A stretch of 38,860 nt of DNA from Lactiplantibacillus plajomi. Lineage in GTDB: Bacteria; Bacillota; Bacilli; Lactobacillales; Lactobacillaceae. Positions within the stretch are counted from its first letter, which is position 1, and each line of letters begins with the position of its first letter. The stretch lies in NCBI RefSeq assembly GCF_005405405.1, contig NZ_BJDZ01000028.1, forward strand, positions 1-38,860, given 5' to 3'. Of the stretch, positions 32,733-38,860 are shown piece by piece. The position numbers and the translations under genes are program-made. A model generated the notes under the pieces. It worked only from the letters and a program-made list of their open reading frames with translations, did no database searches and was not told the DNA's origin.

Positions 32733-33279
32733 ACTAGCCGATTATTTACCAGATTACTATGATAATGTTCTCGAAACTGATTTACTAATGCAAACTGAGC
32801 AGAAATTATTCGATGGCCGGACCGATGAATTGGGACGCTTATTGATGAACCAATTTGTAACGCAGGCTGATAGTACGGGGTTATCTGTATTTGAGGCGGA
32901 ACTTGGCATGGATGTTGATCCCCATACACCCCTGGAGACGCGGCGGACAAATATCTTGTTGCGAGTGCTACCACCGCAGGCAATCACGCTCGGCTATTTT
33001 CGACAACTGGTGAATGCGCTCAAGATACCAGCCGATATTGTTGTTGACTCGGTTAGTTGTGTTGTGAAGACGTTAAGCACCGTGGGGGCGTTGACACCAA
33101 GCCAAGTGGTACAACTTAAGTTCTTAATGAATACCTACTTACCCAGTAACTTAGCCTATCAAATTAGTAAACAGGGTAATACAGATAGCAAACATGTTTT
33201 AAAGGTAGGTTTTGCAACGCATGCAAAGGTAACGGCCTTTGTGGGTGCAACGCCAATTGACTATAAGGGGGTTGGATAA
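32725..33279 (+). CDS. XkdU/YmfQ-like tail protein (DUF2313)
   Basis: A 184-residue protein with the start VKLADYLPDYYDNVLETDLL, FDGRTDELGRLLMNQFVTQA, TPLETRRTNILLRV and LKFLMNTYLPSNLAYQI. This is the pattern of the XkdU/YmfQ family that follows baseplate J in PBSX- and Mu-like phages (gp48 of Mu). It links the wedge to the fibres. It overlaps both neighbours, by eight bases and one base. Confidence 0.88.
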   Translation: MVKLADYLPDYYDNVLETDLLMQTEQKLFDGRTDELGRLLMNQFVTQADSTGLSVFEAELGMDVDPHTPLETRRTNILLRVLPPQAITLGYFRQLVNALKIPADIVVDSVSCVVKTLSTVGALTPSQVVQLKFLMNTYLPSNLAYQISKQGNTDSKHVLKVGFATHAKVTAFVGATPIDYKGVG

Positions 33280-34196
33280 TGGCGAAGTATAAAGACTCAG
33301 TATTGACCACAGCTGGCCTAGCGTTGGCCAGTAGCGCTTATGCAGGAAAAACGACGTTCAAACTGACTCGTACAACGACTACAGCTGAAAAATTGACGAC
33401 CGATAAGATTAGGCCTTTATCAGCGCTGCCTATTGAGAAACAAGAAGGGCTTATTACACAAGGTGATAGTGTAGTCACACATGATCATACTCTGATTACG
33501 GCAGAACTGTATTTTACAAATCAAGACTTGTCAGCCGGATACGAAGTTAATGCGATTGGCGTGTATGCACAGGAGACTGGTGCGGATGAAATTCTCTATA
33601 GTGTTATCATTGCAGACCAGCCAGAATACATGCCGGATTTTAGTGATAAAGTCCTAATGGAATTTAAAACGACCGTAACAATGGCGGTCGGTCAAATCGA
33701 TGCCGTTATTATCGAGATGGCAACTGATGGATTAGCAACACGACAATACGTCGACAACACATTAAAGCAAGCCAAATCGTATGCGGACACTGGTGATAGC
33801 CAAGCTCTAACCGCGGCAAAAGAGTATACGGATAGCAATTTGCCAGCAAGCTTGGATGATCGTAGCTTCGCAGTGGACATCTCAATGCTTAACGTGAATG
33901 ACTTTCCGCATTTTAGAGCCTGGGGTTACTACAACGGCGCCGGAATTGCGCAAACAACCGCTTATGCTGGGGTACCGCTGATGACGGAGTTCACCTTAAG
34001 CGTTGATTTAAAAGAAAATGGTGAAGTAATGATTCCTAAGCTGGTTCCGAAACAAATCGAAACGGCGTTGCCTGATTTTGATACGAGTAGCTTCACTGTG
34101 AGCGTAGCCAGTGACGGTGAGTGGCTGTACCTGATTTCGGAACCAGCAACAATCGGTATTCAGTGTTTGAATGCGAAATTTAAACGGGAGGAATAG
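33279..34196 (+). CDS. tail fibre / receptor-binding protein, collar type
   Basis: A 305-residue protein. Residues ~1-150 match the phage tail-collar fibre N-terminal domain (YKDSVLTTAGLALASSAYAG, GKTTFKLTRTTTTAEKL, AGYEVNAIGVYAQETGADEI, MEFKTTVTMAVGQIDAVI). A coiled segment follows (YVDNTLKQAKSYADTGDSQA), then a C-terminal domain likely to contact the cell. It is followed after two bases by the first G8 leader ORF. Confidence 0.85.
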   Translation: MAKYKDSVLTTAGLALASSAYAGKTTFKLTRTTTTAEKLTTDKIRPLSALPIEKQEGLITQGDSVVTHDHTLITAELYFTNQDLSAGYEVNAIGVYAQETGADEILYSVIIADQPEYMPDFSDKVLMEFKTTVTMAVGQIDAVIIEMATDGLATRQYVDNTLKQAKSYADTGDSQALTAAKEYTDSNLPASLDDRSFAVDISMLNVNDFPHFRAWGYYNGAGIAQTTAYAGVPLMTEFTLSVDLKENGEVMIPKLVPKQIETALPDFDTSSFTVSVASDGEWLYLISEPATIGIQCLNAKFKREE

Positions 34197-34198
34197 CA

Positions 34199-34306
34199 AT
34201 GAAAATTAGAACTACATTAGAATTTGTCGGGGGGGGCAAAAATGCTAGTTTAACAGCATTTTTAACCCCTTTATCATACGTGGATGGTGGTGTTAACCAT
34301 GGCTAA
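34199..34306 (+). CDS. 35-codon leader ORF with G8 tract, copy 1 (open)
   Basis: It starts with ATG after a strong GGAGGAATAGC site and encodes MKIRTTLEFVGGGKN then FLTPLSYVDGGVNHG. The three central glycines are written by a run of eight G (34229-34236). The stop codon overlaps the start of the next fibre gene, so translation of the two is probably coupled. An inverted repeat AAAAATGCT/AGCATTTTT lies after the G run. A homologous copy stands at 36050. The peptide may be structural or only a translational leader. Confidence 0.62.
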   Translation: MKIRTTLEFVGGGKNASLTAFLTPLSYVDGGVNHG

Positions 34307-35117
34307 CATCACTACGATTGACCCTGGCCAAGCTGGCTGGGACCGAGTTGCTAATAAGAACTTTGAAACTCTGGCCAATACAGTTGTTGGTGGGCGTAAC
34401 TACTTTAGCATGGCTAACTTTAACGCTAATAAGTTTGAAGAATCCGTGCTTAAAATGCCTTCGGTTATCTTGCAATTAAAACCGAATACTGTGTATACCG
34501 TTTCAACGACAATTCCGGCACGAACTGACTTAGACGACGCACAAGACTGTTTCGCAGGTCCGGTGGGTTTTCGTCCGGAATCGGGTGTTAATGGTGTTAA
34601 AGATACGGCTCCGCTAACGGTTACGACGGATGCGGTTGGTAAGCTGCAGGTTTCATACCGTAATACCAATCTGAGAGAGAACCACATTCAGGTTGAATTA
34701 GGCGATAAAGCCACTGACTGGCGGCCGGCCATTGAAGATATGGCACAGGTATCTGACACTGGTTGGCAAACGGAAGGTGTTGGCTTAGTTAACGGTGCTA
34801 AGGTCACTGATAGTAAGCCAAATAATGTGCCTATGTACCGTTTTGTTACGCTGACTGCTAATGGCGAAGAACTCCATTTATTATCGATTCATGCTGGCTT
34901 AACCGGTTTTAGTTCGCGTTCGAAAATCATTACTTTGCCAACGTCGGTACAGTCAGCGCTCGAGAACGTACAAGGTATCCCGTTTGGCGATGATTCGTAT
35001 CATGCCACTCTCTGGCTGAGCGCTAGCGGGCCAAATGTCTACTTCGATACTTACCAAGGTACGGCGCAAAGCGCACCATCAGGCGGGGTATTGATCAGCA
35101 CAACAGTAATGTATTAG
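34299..35117 (+). CDS. tail fibre protein 1 with GQAGWDRVAN N-terminus
   Basis: A 272-residue protein. The first ~25 residues (MANITTIDPGQAGWDRVANK) are shared with two other genes nearby and probably attach the protein to the virion. The middle (~35-155) has the carbohydrate-binding-like pattern LKPNTVYTVSTT to IQVELGDKATDWRPAIED, common in phage tail proteins. The last part, beginning DTGWQTEG (~157 on), resembles the end of the gene at 36151. ATG 34299 with GGTGGTG upstream lies inside the end of the leader ORF, so I infer coupled translation. A terminator follows. Confidence 0.82.
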   Translation: MANITTIDPGQAGWDRVANKNFETLANTVVGGRNYFSMANFNANKFEESVLKMPSVILQLKPNTVYTVSTTIPARTDLDDAQDCFAGPVGFRPESGVNGVKDTAPLTVTTDAVGKLQVSYRNTNLRENHIQVELGDKATDWRPAIEDMAQVSDTGWQTEGVGLVNGAKVTDSKPNNVPMYRFVTLTANGEELHLLSIHAGLTGFSSRSKIITLPTSVQSALENVQGIPFGDDSYHATLWLSASGPNVYFDTYQGTAQSAPSGGVLISTTVMY

Positions 35118-35142
35118 GTCGTCCATGTTGGGCGGCCTTTTA
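35116..35142 (+). terminator. rho-independent terminator after fibre gene 1
   Basis: AGGTCGTCC and GGGCGGCCT form a 9-bp stem (two T-G pairs) around ATGTT, followed by TTTT. It is only moderately strong and could attenuate transcription of the downstream fibre genes. Confidence 0.6.
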
Positions 35143-35162
35143 ATATAGAAAGGAAGCTCAAT

Positions 35163-35579
35163 ATGGCAGTCAATTTAACTGAAATCACACACGGTCAAGC
35201 CGGGTGGGATAAAACTGCAAATTCAAACTTTAACGCATTAAACCAAGATACTGGGTTAGTACGACTAACAATGGTGGGCGCAATCAAAGGCTTATACCAG
35301 GCAGAGAATGCACCACTTGCACGCAGGGTCAACGGTGTAGTGCATTTAACTTCGGGGATTATCTCCACGGGAACCATTCCTGCTGACACAAAGATTCTAT
35401 CTATGCCAGATGAACTACTTGGTGCCGATGGAGGGATTACCGCGTTATGTCAGGATGTCACTAATAAAGGTGCTTTTCCCGTCACAATTAAGACGGGCGG
35501 TTTGTTTGTGGCAAAAGACTTAGCATGTGGAACTAGTTTGAATTTTGCAGGGATCACTTATTTAGGAAAGGATGTATAA
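35163..35579 (+). CDS. tail fibre-like protein 2, short
   Basis: A 138-residue protein. Its N-terminal part (LTEITHGQAGWDKTANSNFN) is paralogous to the other two fibre genes, while the rest (VRLTMVGAIKGLYQAENAPL, GVVHLTSGIISTGTIPADTK, ILSMPDELLG) is different and beta-rich. It lacks the G8 leader found before its paralogues; AAAGGAAG lies upstream of the ATG. It could be an accessory fibre or receptor-binding variant. Confidence 0.75.
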   Translation: MAVNLTEITHGQAGWDKTANSNFNALNQDTGLVRLTMVGAIKGLYQAENAPLARRVNGVVHLTSGIISTGTIPADTKILSMPDELLGADGGITALCQDVTNKGAFPVTIKTGGLFVAKDLACGTSLNFAGITYLGKDV

Positions 35580-35580
35580 G

Positions 35581-35910
35581 ATGGCTATTTTGTACTATTG
35601 GGACGAAAAAAAAGAGCTCAATCACAGCGAGTTCTATCAAGATGAACTGCCAACGCCGATGCCGTCAAATGCAACTTCGGTAGCACCCCGAAACGGGCTG
35701 TATGAACCGATTACTTGGAATGGGGAGACATGGGTTGGCACCGATAAAGAGGTATGGTTAGCAGCTCATCCTGTATCTAAGCCGGAACCATCGGCACAGG
35801 ACAAAGCTAATGCTGCATTGGCTTTGCAAATTGCACAAAATAAGGCAGCTCAGGATAAGTTTAATGCGCAAACAATGTTGGCACTTGCACAGAATGGAGG
35901 AACTAACTAA
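35581..35910 (+). CDS. tail protein, XkdW-like position
   Basis: A 109-residue protein with aromatic start (AILYYWDEKKELNHSEFYQD), a middle that reads PRNGLYEPITWNGETWVGTD, and a long alanine/glutamine-rich helix at the end (QDKANAALALQIAQNKAAQD). Size, position before XkdX and the helical end resemble XkdW-type or fibre-assembly proteins. The family is not certain. ATG 35581 has AAAGG nine bases upstream. The stop codon shares a base with the XkdX start. Confidence 0.7.
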   Translation: MAILYYWDEKKELNHSEFYQDELPTPMPSNATSVAPRNGLYEPITWNGETWVGTDKEVWLAAHPVSKPEPSAQDKANAALALQIAQNKAAQDKFNAQTMLALAQNGGTN

Positions 35911-36047
35911 TGTTTTTTGACTATATCAAACAGTACTACACGATGGGGCTTTATACGAAAGATGATCTCAAAACATTAAAGCTTGGCGGCATGATGACTG
36001 CTGATCAGTATGATGAACTAGTTGGCGCTGCGAAAACGGAGGAATAG
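35910..36047 (+). CDS. xkdX: XkdX family protein
   Basis: A 45-residue protein with the complete XkdX pattern: FFDYIKQYYTMGLYTKDDL then VGGM-like LGGMMTADQYDELVG. XkdX proteins lie among the tail genes of PBSX-like phages; their role is unknown. GGAGG precedes the start, which overlaps the previous stop codon. The second G8 leader begins three bases after its stop. Confidence 0.85.
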   Translation: MFFDYIKQYYTMGLYTKDDLKTLKLGGMMTADQYDELVGAAKTEE

Positions 36048-36049
36048 TA

Positions 36050-36091
36050 ATGAAAATTAAAGCTGAATTAGAAATTGTCGGGGGGGGCTAG
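36050..36091 (+). CDS. leader ORF with G8 tract, copy 2 (interrupted by one base)
   Basis: It starts with ATG after GGAGGAATAGT, the same site as copy 1, and encodes MKIKAELEIVGGG before a TAG. The glycines are again written by eight G (36080-36087). If the run were seven G, the frame would stay open for 35 codons (GGARNVVTPVFLTFLSSVNG, then GVDNG) and would align without gaps to copy 1, 19 of 35 residues identical, ending across the start of the next fibre gene. TAGAAAT/ATTTCTA forms a hairpin at the place where copy 1 has a different one. Confidence 0.6.
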   Translation: MKIKAELEIVGGG

Positions 36092-36150
36092 AAATGTTGT
36101 AACACCAGTATTTCTAACCTTTTTATCATCAGTGAACGGTGGTGTTGATA

Positions 36151-36561
36151 ATGGCTAACATCACCAACATTGATTATGGACAAGCCGGTTGGGATCGAGT
36201 CGCTAATGAAAACTTTAAAGCGATTAACGCTGATATTACTGACACTGGCTGGATTGACTTAACACTTATTAATGGGTTCGCTAATCAATCGACAATTGGA
36301 AAAACAAGTATTAGAAAATTTGGGAAGCTAGTAACTTTACGAGTAGCACTAACTGGACTATCGCTAAAAAGCGTGGCCACTAGACTGCCCTCTGGTTTTT
36401 CACCTTTGCAACAGATTCCGATTTCATTAAGAGGAACTGAGGGGCGGACCTTTTCACTGACAGTTACAGGCTACGGTGAATTAAAATTTGAAAGTCCTGC
36501 AGATAATAACTTTGAGTCAACTGATTATGTTGGCGGCATTGTGAGTTGGATGACAGAATAG
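36151..36561 (+). CDS. tail fibre protein 3 with GQAGWDRVAN N-terminus
   Basis: A 136-residue protein. Its start (MANITNIDYGQAGWDRVANE) is nearly the same as that of the gene at 34299. It is followed by a domain (DTGWIDLTLINGF, FGKLVTLRVALTGLSLKSVA, TRLPSGFSPL) that resembles the end of that gene. It seems to be a short alternative fibre lacking the middle domain. ATG 36151 has GGTGGTG upstream and stands where a restored leader frame would end. Its translation may therefore depend on the state of the G8 tract. Confidence 0.78.
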   Translation: MANITNIDYGQAGWDRVANENFKAINADITDTGWIDLTLINGFANQSTIGKTSIRKFGKLVTLRVALTGLSLKSVATRLPSGFSPLQQIPISLRGTEGRTFSLTVTGYGELKFESPADNNFESTDYVGGIVSWMTE

Positions 36562-36573
36562 GGGTGATTGAAT

Positions 36574-36957
36574 GTGCTTTATCACTTAAAACATAATAGA
36601 TTTTGGTTATGGAAAGCGCTAGAGACGTACGGTCTCGGCGTTTATTTTTTAATCAAGCAAAACACTTTCGTCTTTGAGCCACCACGACCTAGCCTACTCG
36701 ATATTTTTGATGATCCGCCAGTAATTTTCATATTGGCTGTCATTGGTACGTTTGCGCTAGTCTACTCACTTTGGAATGTAAACTTTTCATATTATAAGCC
36801 GGTCATGACGGGGTTGCTAACCTTTGCATGGCTATTTTTTATGGTCGCGTTTGGGTTGCATGATTTTGCTATTCAAAGGTATGTCAGCTTTGAGAGTATG
36901 TATGCATTCTTTGTATTAGCATCCACGATTTTTGAGATTGTTATGGGAGATGACTAG
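36574..36957 (+). CDS. membrane protein with about three spans
   Basis: A 127-residue protein. A basic N-terminal part is followed by hydrophobic segments near residues ~53-68 (VIFILAVIGTFALVYSLW), ~78-95 (VMTGLLTFAWLFFMVAFGL) and ~105-122 (MYAFFVLASTIFEIVM). It lies at the start of the lysis block and could assist holin function, but the family is unknown. GTG 36574 is chosen because AGGGGTGAT stands at a proper distance; TTG 36568 is too close. Confidence 0.7.
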   Translation: MLYHLKHNRFWLWKALETYGLGVYFLIKQNTFVFEPPRPSLLDIFDDPPVIFILAVIGTFALVYSLWNVNFSYYKPVMTGLLTFAWLFFMVAFGLHDFAIQRYVSFESMYAFFVLASTIFEIVMGDD

Positions 36958-36959
36958 GT

Positions 36960-37157
36960 ATGAGTGACGCTGTTGCGGTAGCTTTGATAACCACGGTGGG
37001 TTCAGTCCTTGTTGCAATCCTGACTCAAGTGGCGACAGTCTGGAAAACCGCAAACAGCGACGATAAAGGGCTTAAGCAGGAGAATGAAGAACTCCGTAGG
37101 AAGAACAAAGAGTTACAAGAAATAGTCGATTACTATAGAAAGAGAGATGATAGGTAG
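36960..37157 (+). CDS. small membrane protein with coiled coil, lysis block
   Basis: A 65-residue protein with one N-terminal membrane span (residues ~5-27; VALITTVGSVLVAILTQVAT) and a charged coiled coil (KQENEELRRKNKELQEIVDY). Proteins of this plan next to holins can act as holin partners or antiholins (compare XhlA, which has the reverse order). The stop codon overlaps the holin start. Confidence 0.75.
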   Translation: MSDAVAVALITTVGSVLVAILTQVATVWKTANSDDKGLKQENEELRRKNKELQEIVDYYRKRDDR

Positions 37158-37441
37158 TGGAGCAACTAATTCAGTTAGTAAATAGCGGCACCATTGTATT
37201 GATCGCGCTGGGAACGTTTGCCATCGTATGGGGGATTAAGCAAACGCCGCTGAACAATAAATACTTGCCGGTTGCGGCAATCTTAATTGGTGCGTTGATT
37301 GGAGCGGTGTTCAGCTTGTTCGCTGGCGATGTTCAACCAACCGTGGGTTTAGTAGATGGTGTCGTTGCTGGTGCTGTTAGCGTGGGTGGGAACGAGTTTA
37401 TTAAGTCACTATTGCATGCGCTTGATGGAGGTGCTAAATAG
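37157..37441 (+). CDS. phage holin
   Basis: A 94-residue protein with membrane segments near residues ~10-27 (TIVLIALGTFAIVWGI), ~36-56 (YLPVAAILIGALIGAVFSLF) and a third hydrophobic stretch (~64-80). A short end follows. The layout matches small phage holins (holin 4/A118-like). It would form pores that release the endolysin encoded by the next gene, which begins directly after it. GTG start in an overlap with the previous stop codon. Confidence 0.85.
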   Translation: MEQLIQLVNSGTIVLIALGTFAIVWGIKQTPLNNKYLPVAAILIGALIGAVFSLFAGDVQPTVGLVDGVVAGAVSVGGNEFIKSLLHALDGGAK

Positions 37442-38515
37442 ATGGTATTACATGGATTTGACGTTGCCAGTTATCAAGCTGATATGAATGTGGGTAAAGT
37501 TCCAGGGGACTTTGTATTAGTGAAAGCGACTGAGGGTACTAATTATATTAACCCTGAATTTAGTAAGCATGTTAAGCAGACGGTTGCCTCAAATAAGAAG
37601 CTAGGTATTTATCATTTCATTCGTAATGACTCGAGTGTTAAAAAACAGGCCGATTATTATCTGACGACGATTAAGAAGTATATTGGTGAGGCCATGTTAG
37701 TACTGGATTTTGAAAATACAAAAGGATCAAGTATTCAAAATCAAAATGGAGTTAGATTAGCTAAACAATGGCTTGATTATATTTATAAGAAGACTGGTGT
37801 ACGCGCAGTATTGTATACGGGATTGAGTTGTGAGAATACGCTTGATTGGTCGTCTGTAGTCAAGTCAAATTACGGACTTTGGATTGCTCAATACAATAAC
37901 TACAAACCTGTGACCGGTTACACGCCGCGTGACTTGTACGGTTCGCTTAAGAATTGGGAAACTGCGGTCATGTTCCAGTACACGAGCAATGGTTATTTAA
38001 CTGGATGGACGTCAGGACTTGATCTAGATGTATTTTATGGTGATACATCGACGTGGGATAAGTATGCCAAGGCTACCAAGACGGTAACCGAAAGCAAACC
38101 TGTTCCAAAGCCTAAGCCAACCGCTACCGGGCCAAAGTGGGTTAAGGAAACAAAGACGTACACTCTTAAGACTGCAGTCAAGCTACGTAAGTCAGCTTCT
38201 ACAGCAGCGGGCGTCATTACAGTACTACCAGCCGGTAGTACGGTTAAGACTGACCGCGCCATTATCCAAGGCGGTTACCGCTGGGTCCGGCAACCACGAT
38301 CCGGTGGTTATGGCTATCTGGCAACCGGCCCGAAGTCAAACACTCTGGCCTATGTAAAAAGTGGTGTTGCTAAGACGTACTACAAGGTCAAGTCCGGCGA
38401 TTCATGGTGGGCGATTGCCAACTCAAATGGTATGACGGTCGGTAAGCTGACCAAGTTAAACGGTGCTACCGCCAGCACTATGATTCATCCGGGAGATAAG
38501 ATTCGAATTAAGTAA
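37442..38515 (+). CDS. endolysin: GH25 muramidase with SH3 and LysM domains
   Basis: A 357-residue lysin. The GH25 muramidase domain (residues ~1-205) has HGFDVASYQ (Asp7) and the catalytic pair in VLDFEN (Asp89, Glu91), plus YTGLS and the end LDLDVFYG. A proline/lysine linker (~215-230) leads to a bacterial SH3 domain (~235-300; VKLRKSASTAAGVITVLPAG, GGYRWVRQPRSGGYGYLATG) and a LysM repeat (~313-357; YYKVKSGDSWWAIANSNGMT, LNGATASTMIHPGDKIRI). It cuts peptidoglycan glycan strands at the end of infection. No signal peptide, so it depends on the holin. A strong terminator follows. Confidence 0.96.
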   Translation: MVLHGFDVASYQADMNVGKVPGDFVLVKATEGTNYINPEFSKHVKQTVASNKKLGIYHFIRNDSSVKKQADYYLTTIKKYIGEAMLVLDFENTKGSSIQNQNGVRLAKQWLDYIYKKTGVRAVLYTGLSCENTLDWSSVVKSNYGLWIAQYNNYKPVTGYTPRDLYGSLKNWETAVMFQYTSNGYLTGWTSGLDLDVFYGDTSTWDKYAKATKTVTESKPVPKPKPTATGPKWVKETKTYTLKTAVKLRKSASTAAGVITVLPAGSTVKTDRAIIQGGYRWVRQPRSGGYGYLATGPKSNTLAYVKSGVAKTYYKVKSGDSWWAIANSNGMTVGKLTKLNGATASTMIHPGDKIRIK

Positions 38516-38518
38516 GCG

Positions 38519-38560
38519 AAAGCCCGTATCAGCCAATTTGGTTGATGCGGGCTTTTTTTA
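38519..38560 (+). terminator. strong rho-independent terminator after the lysin gene
   Basis: AGCCCGTATCAGCC (38521-38534) and GGTTGATGCGGGCT (38540-38553) form a 14-bp stem with a 5-base loop, followed by a run of seven T. It ends the late operon. Confidence 0.93.
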
Positions 38561-38842
38561 TGTAAGTGCTAGTATTATGAAACTAGCACTTAGCGATTAT
38601 ATCCTTGACCACGTGTGGATAATGCATTTGATACATGTCTACGATATTACAGACAAGTTATTTGTGCAATCTTATGAACGTAATTGTAAGTTGAACGTTA
38701 ATTTCCTCAGGCAATTACGTTGGGTCGAGTGCAAGTATAAATTATGTATGAACCCTGCCTATGGGCCTAGAATAAAAAGTGTACAAGTTAAATAGAGACT
38801 CTGATTTAGTATAATTAAGGAAGTAAATTGGAGGATCAAATA
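38561..38842. other. AT-rich region after the late operon, no convincing gene
   Basis: A 10-bp inverted repeat AAGTGCTAGT/ACTAGCACTT (38564-38573, 38582-38591) opens the region. An open frame from ATG 38577 to 38795 (LALSDYILDHVWIMHLIHVY) lacks a ribosome binding site and has no recognisable domain. A TATAAT at 38810-38815 with a poor -35 (TTAAAT, 16 bp upstream) could start transcription of the following gene. No copy of the tRNA-Leu end, and thus no attR, is present. Confidence 0.5.
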
Positions 38843-38860
38843 ATGACGAAGCACAGTTAT
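38843..38860 (+). CDS. start of an unknown gene, cut by the window edge
   Basis: ATG 38843 follows GGAGG by eight bases and TATAAT by about 28 bases, so a gene very likely begins here. Only MTKHSY is visible. It may be a cargo gene between the lysin and attR or a host gene. Confidence 0.6.

Follow-up and report, generated by a model that had tools for sequence, protein, structure and literature searches.

Reversible switching of phage tail fibres is known from DNA inversion, and targeted variation from retroelements. The invertible tail-fibre segments of Mu (G segment, Gin) and P1 (Cin) reversibly change the fibre that is made. Diversity-generating retroelements, as in phage BPP-1, aim variation at the receptor-binding protein. 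Some Campylobacter phage genes are reported to have G tracts. In poly-G contingency genes, which are known from Campylobacter and Neisseria, the length of the run sets the reading frame and thereby switches surface functions on or off (PMC10877375, PMC8355987, PMC5084427). In Helicobacter pylori tlpB, a variable G run in the mRNA leader sets expression and is the target of RepG (PMC8295292). Here we analyze a stretch of 38,860 nucleotides from Lactiplantibacillus plajomi (contig NZ_BJDZ01000028.1, hereafter the window). It holds a contractile-tailed temperate prophage in which two of three paralogous tail-fibre genes stand behind short leader open reading frames (ORFs) with a G run. These runs probably switch individual fibres on and off at random, which would give a mixed host-binding set.

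This locus resembles the Campylobacter and Neisseria genes in that run length sets the frame. Those genes belong to bacteria and typically carry the run within or at the gene itself, whereas here the run lies in a phage leader ORF that precedes the fibre gene, and each prophage has several such leaders. In tlpB the run is read by a small RNA, RepG, while a translated leader frame is proposed here. In contrast to the either/or inversion of Mu and P1, the fibres seem to be set on or off independently. No inverted repeat of at least 18 nt was found in 33000-37500, so the region does not show the inverted repeats that flank alternative fibre ends in invertase-switched fibres. Unlike in BPP-1, whole fibres would switch and codons would not be mutated; no reverse transcriptase was found among the 19 window ORFs scanned with Pfam. 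Among the titles and abstracts listed, with subscription literature largely outside their scope, we found no description of homopolymer-switched phage tail fibres or of a phase-variable phage leader ORF. A term search in PMC2831843 gave no mention of phage.

The initial annotation had noticed homologous leaders with the same ribosome binding site and a G8 run before two of the three fibres. All of this is present in the sequence (Table 1). Both leaders share the ribosome binding site GGAGGAATAG(C/T)A, and fibre B (35163) has no leader. The leader 1 peptide is MKIRTTLEFVGGGKNASLTAFLTPLSYVDGGVNHG; as annotated, its frame stays open for the full length and ends across the fibre A ATG at 34299. 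Leader 2 meets a TAG behind its run, and another downstream frame is open as far as a TAA that overlaps the fibre C ATG (36151) by 8 nt. A recount by eye of the two peptides gave the same 19 identical residues of 35. Apart from the two G8s, this strand of the window has no run of at least 6 G, and it has none of at least 6 C. Two such runs by themselves are unremarkable, because the first-order expectation for this strand is 0.4. What goes beyond chance is that they occupy equivalent positions in homologous leaders. Counting both strands of the 2.76 Mb genome, there are five G8 places; two are in these leaders, 1.85 kb apart.

Table 1. Features of the leader and fibre region, in positions of the window
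Feature	Position	Strand	Remarks
Leader ORF 1, open, 35 codons	34199..34306	+	stop overlaps the fibre A start by 8 nt
G8 run of leader 1	34229..34236	+	
Predicted RNA stem-loop	34229..34272	+	CCCCUUU pairs with the G run and encloses an inner hairpin; some covariation
Tail-fibre gene A	34299..35117	+	behind leader 1
Fibre gene B, leaderless paralogue, presumed constant fibre	35163..35579	+	ordinary ribosome binding site
Tail-fibre-family gene (phrog_1766) between fibres B and C	35581..35910	+	
Leader ORF 2 in its present form, closed after 13 codons	36050..36091	+	TAG 36089-36091 behind the run
G8 run of leader 2	36080..36087	+	
Remainder of leader 2	36088..36158	+	hairpin and frame open to the TAA overlapping the fibre start
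Tail-fibre gene C	36151..36561	+	behind leader 2

We compared 17 leaders of the genus type from eight prophage loci. L042 and L043 are tandem copies in one genome (G312), so the 17 leaders correspond to 15 distinct ones when run length is ignored. The run is not an invariant G8. It measures 7 in two leaders, 8 in five, 9 in four, 10 in five and 21 in one. In 17 of 17, a run of at least 7 lies inside the putatively translated leader frame, and one downstream frame has a stop that overlaps the start of the fibre gene by 8 nt. The leader frame noted before is thus present in related prophages, with its end fixed on the fibre start. Taking the ATG behind the ribosome site as the leader start, nine leaders enter this frame. 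The other eight miss it, five in one direction and three in the other. The states, in order along each locus, are open and closed in the window and in L053; closed and open in L042 and L043; closed, open and closed in L044; both open in L045 and L046; and both closed in L047. Read directly from the sequences, run length varies around a fixed frame geometry.

Across 39,715 aligned columns, the tandem prophages of G312 are identical except for one G in the run of the first leader (G9 vs G10, possibly a sequencing error). This piecewise comparison covers the repeat of roughly 41 kb except for about 1.35 kb. The two copies, of about 41 kb each, stand in direct tandem from G312:C1 1773222 to about 1855352, and the second starts near C1:1814287. 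The unusually long G21 run belongs to the leader at 9061 in L046; its frame is still open and encodes seven consecutive glycines.

Four of the 17 leaders (three distinct: the second of L042/L043 and both of L045) use a different frame in their middle part (SN for LT). The open frame of these leaders still terminates on the fibre start, which suggests that the open frame is maintained and not the peptide.

A predicted RNA fold lies behind the run. The G run and CC(C)UUUU would form a stem that encloses an inner hairpin (dinucleotide-shuffle z of -2.8 and -1.8). In 16 aligned leaders, 85% of the pair cells are standard, vs 51 to 65% when the alignment is slid. Cells with a double change number 16, compared with 6.2 in shuffles (0/500). 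The constraint seems to fall on the open frame ending on the fibre start and on the RNA fold, not on the peptide.

We consider it likely that each leader is a slipped-strand contingency (phase-variation) switch, in which translation of the leader opens the next fibre start. Slipped-strand mispairing in replication, at a presumed rate, would alter the run by one or a few G. With the frame open behind the run, ribosomes would pass through the hairpin and stop just inside the fibre start. They would unfold this start and reinitiate there, in a manner that presumably depends on the leader. With the frame closed, ribosomes would depart early, the fibre start would remain folded, and less fibre would be made.

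The initial annotation had taken slippage as a choice between fibres. This part does not seem to hold: the leaders seem to be set independently, given the loci with both open or both closed, and a leaderless, presumably constant fibre is present in each of the seven distinct loci. The existence of such loci points to on/off switching of single accessory fibres rather than choice. With this change, from fibre choice to seemingly independent on/off beside a constant fibre, the earlier interpretation is supported. Each locus would have one leaderless, presumably constant fibre and one to three switchable fibres, and the virions released by a lysogen population would then differ in their fibre sets. 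The fibre composition of the virions, and presumably their host binding, would vary accordingly.

Coupling of fibre translation to the leader was proposed in the same annotation. We predicted the opening energy of 15 leader-preceded starts (L043 omitted as a duplicate, the first of L047 included though its fibre is lost). The comparison comprised seven leaderless fibres and 27 other starts taken from the program-made list of ORFs in the window. Mean opening energies were 11.8 kcal/mol behind leaders (n=15), 6.0 for leaderless fibres (n=7) and 6.2 for the other starts (n=27); the difference from these 27 was significant (p 4.6e-6). After correction by shuffles, the mean z was -1.22 behind leaders, 0.56 for leaderless fibres and 0.19 for the others (p 2e-4). 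The fibre start behind leaders is therefore predicted to be occluded, and in this model the occlusion exceeds the effect of composition. The leaderless fibres have a GAAAGGA-type site, and a stop at the overlap position in none of the seven. The predicted occlusion and the contrast with leaderless fibres support coupling; unpaired probability and Shine-Dalgarno strength do not.

Several observations weigh against the switch. The Shine-Dalgarno match is not weaker behind leaders (mean duplex of -11.3 vs -10.8 kcal/mol in leaderless fibres, with an assumed 16S tail sequence). A weak Shine-Dalgarno as the cause of coupling is thus unsupported, as duplex energies are equally good in both sets. Because of this good match, a closed leader may merely reduce translation. 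The mean unpaired probability is not clearly lower at 17 leader starts than at 14 comparison starts, a set in which three coordinates were off by one and two were leaders themselves. One of the 15 starts behind leaders, the first of L047, lacks its fibre. For the fold, two of five covariation measures are not above shuffles in the aligned leaders; pairs with a double change number 5 vs 4.1, and pair types 13 vs 14.6. In mononucleotide shuffles, at least one frame is often open by chance across the 55 nt that follow the run (mean 0.75), which makes an open frame weak evidence when taken alone. Because the leaders are homologous, tests that compare them lack independence. In G312, the difference of a single G comes from one pair only and could reflect an error of sequencing or assembly at a homopolymer. 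Finally, leaders are sparse (9 of 397 family genomes with a covariance model), and searches of phage and plasmid collections with the leader peptide and DNA gave no match.

The leader could instead act on transcription, through attenuation or Rho polarity; run length would still switch the fibre. We find this doubtful. The hairpin within the leader ends in CC(C)UUUU, there is a terminator-like stem (35116-35138) between fibres A and B, and two of ten promoter-like sites fall in leaders (34250-34277, 36123-36152). Nevertheless, the leader hairpins are absent from the output of the terminator scan, and promoter-like sites are not above shuffles (10 vs 13.8). Strong termination would also be costly, barring internal promoters, because the lysis genes are downstream.

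Programmed ribosomal frameshifting or transcriptional slippage is unlikely. Here the run and its hairpin would make a fixed fraction of ribosomes or transcripts shift, both frames would always be made, and run length would be no genetic switch. A G run followed by a stem-loop does resemble a slippery site with a stimulator. However, a programmed site is expected to have a constant offset, and the offset to the open frame falls into three classes (9, 5 and 3 of 17). Runs from G7 to G21 are also unlike a fixed slippery heptamer. Frameshifting could still contribute leakiness.

It is improbable that the leaders are only recombination joints, in which fibre heads are swapped via the conserved leader and N-terminus while frame and run have no regulatory use. 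The leader with the fibre 5' end is the only direct repeat of at least 18 nt found in 33000-37500. The first leader of L047 (6038-6189) has lost its own fibre and reads straight into the leaderless paralogue, which suggests cassette loss by recombination. This explanation does not account for the fixed 8-nt overlap and the predicted start occlusion, nor for leaderless paralogues with the same N-terminus. A recombination role and a switch role can coexist.

It is very improbable that leader 2 represents a small gene that is frameshifted and decayed, or a sequencing error: it is closed in a single sequence (the IMG/VR contig L019, identical to the window over 11,155 bases, may be the same genome), yet the eight closed leaders retain hairpin, run and stop-start overlap, which decay would erode, and the recurrence of leader, run and overlap in relatives makes chance or decay unlikely.

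Returning to the contingency switch, we are inclined to see these leaders as portable modules (ribosome site, G run, hairpin and frame ending on the fibre start) that form an undescribed class of phage contingency system. It would turn fibres on and off independently, reversibly and driven by replication, beside one constant fibre. Combinatorial virions would arise with neither invertase nor retroelement. If this is true, a homopolymer in a 35-codon leader is a far simpler fibre switch, and it travels with each fibre cassette. Phage bet-hedging on host binding would become testable in food lactobacilli. Such short leader ORFs are easily overlooked by gene callers that skip small ORFs. Searches could use the leader model as a handle, looking for short ORFs that contain a G run and whose stop codon overlaps the start of a fibre gene.

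The prophage of the window contains integrase, ERF recombinase, terminase, portal and sheath genes. Pfam identifies a tape measure, a Mu gp48-like protein, a holin and a GH25 lysin, and PHROGs a baseplate wedge. The baseplate genes are followed by a tail-fibre-like gene (33279) and then by the three paralogous fibre genes. Fibres A, B and C have a common N-terminus of the type MANITxIDxGQAGWDRVANxNF and differ in their heads. None of them has a Pfam match, and fibre B has no PHROGs match either. Fibre A is similar (34% over 44% of its length) to part of a protein of Lactobacillus brevis phage 521B that is annotated as a structural or host range and adsorption protein. Fibre C is similar to minor tail proteins (phrog_257, E 9e-7; also Staphylococcus phage 37). 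Rfam gave no match at the gathering score in 33000-38860. In some relatives, a GGCCTTTT stretch like the 35116-35138 stem lies ahead of the leaderless fibre. Early in gene 35581 there is an A8 run (35606-35613), the only A or T run of at least 8 on this strand of the window.

BLAST with leader 1 in 397 family genomes recovered leaders in its own genome and in five others of the genus. Four weak matches of 26 to 33 bases in other genera were left out of the leader count. The covariance model, built from 16 leaders, found them in 6 of 21 genus genomes, the own genome included (15 places). A wider covariance model reached the same family count, and of 395 genomes across the order it picked out 3. 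Three leader-bearing genomes lie outside the genus, in two genera (2 of 24 genomes of one and 1 of 7 of the other). Judged by eye, each of their leaders is directly upstream of a gene in an apparent tail-fibre module, and the runs are G6, G6 and G7. In the L119 leader the entered frame stops, by eye, shortly before the fibre ATG; it was counted neither as open nor as closed.

Pattern scans of viral contigs gave three with real leaders (L019, L053, L121). The matches in L017, L018, L054, L120, L122 and L123 to L128 were judged by eye to be due to chance. A protein search of viral contigs with gene 33279 recovered only the contig of L019. Fibre B homologues are present in 5 of the 21 genus genomes, and all five carry leaders. 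The sixth leader carrier, G099, has no fibre B homologue at the threshold; its leaderless gene (L044 7604) is a paralogue by eye.

Among the places with a G8 or longer run, we read 17 regions outside the known leaders. Except for L089 (G360:C6, near 95119), these runs fall within ordinary genes, between them, or at the ends of contigs. There a G9 stands in a short ORF that closes right after the run, and another frame looks open onward. L089 is possibly a second kind of phase-variable gene.
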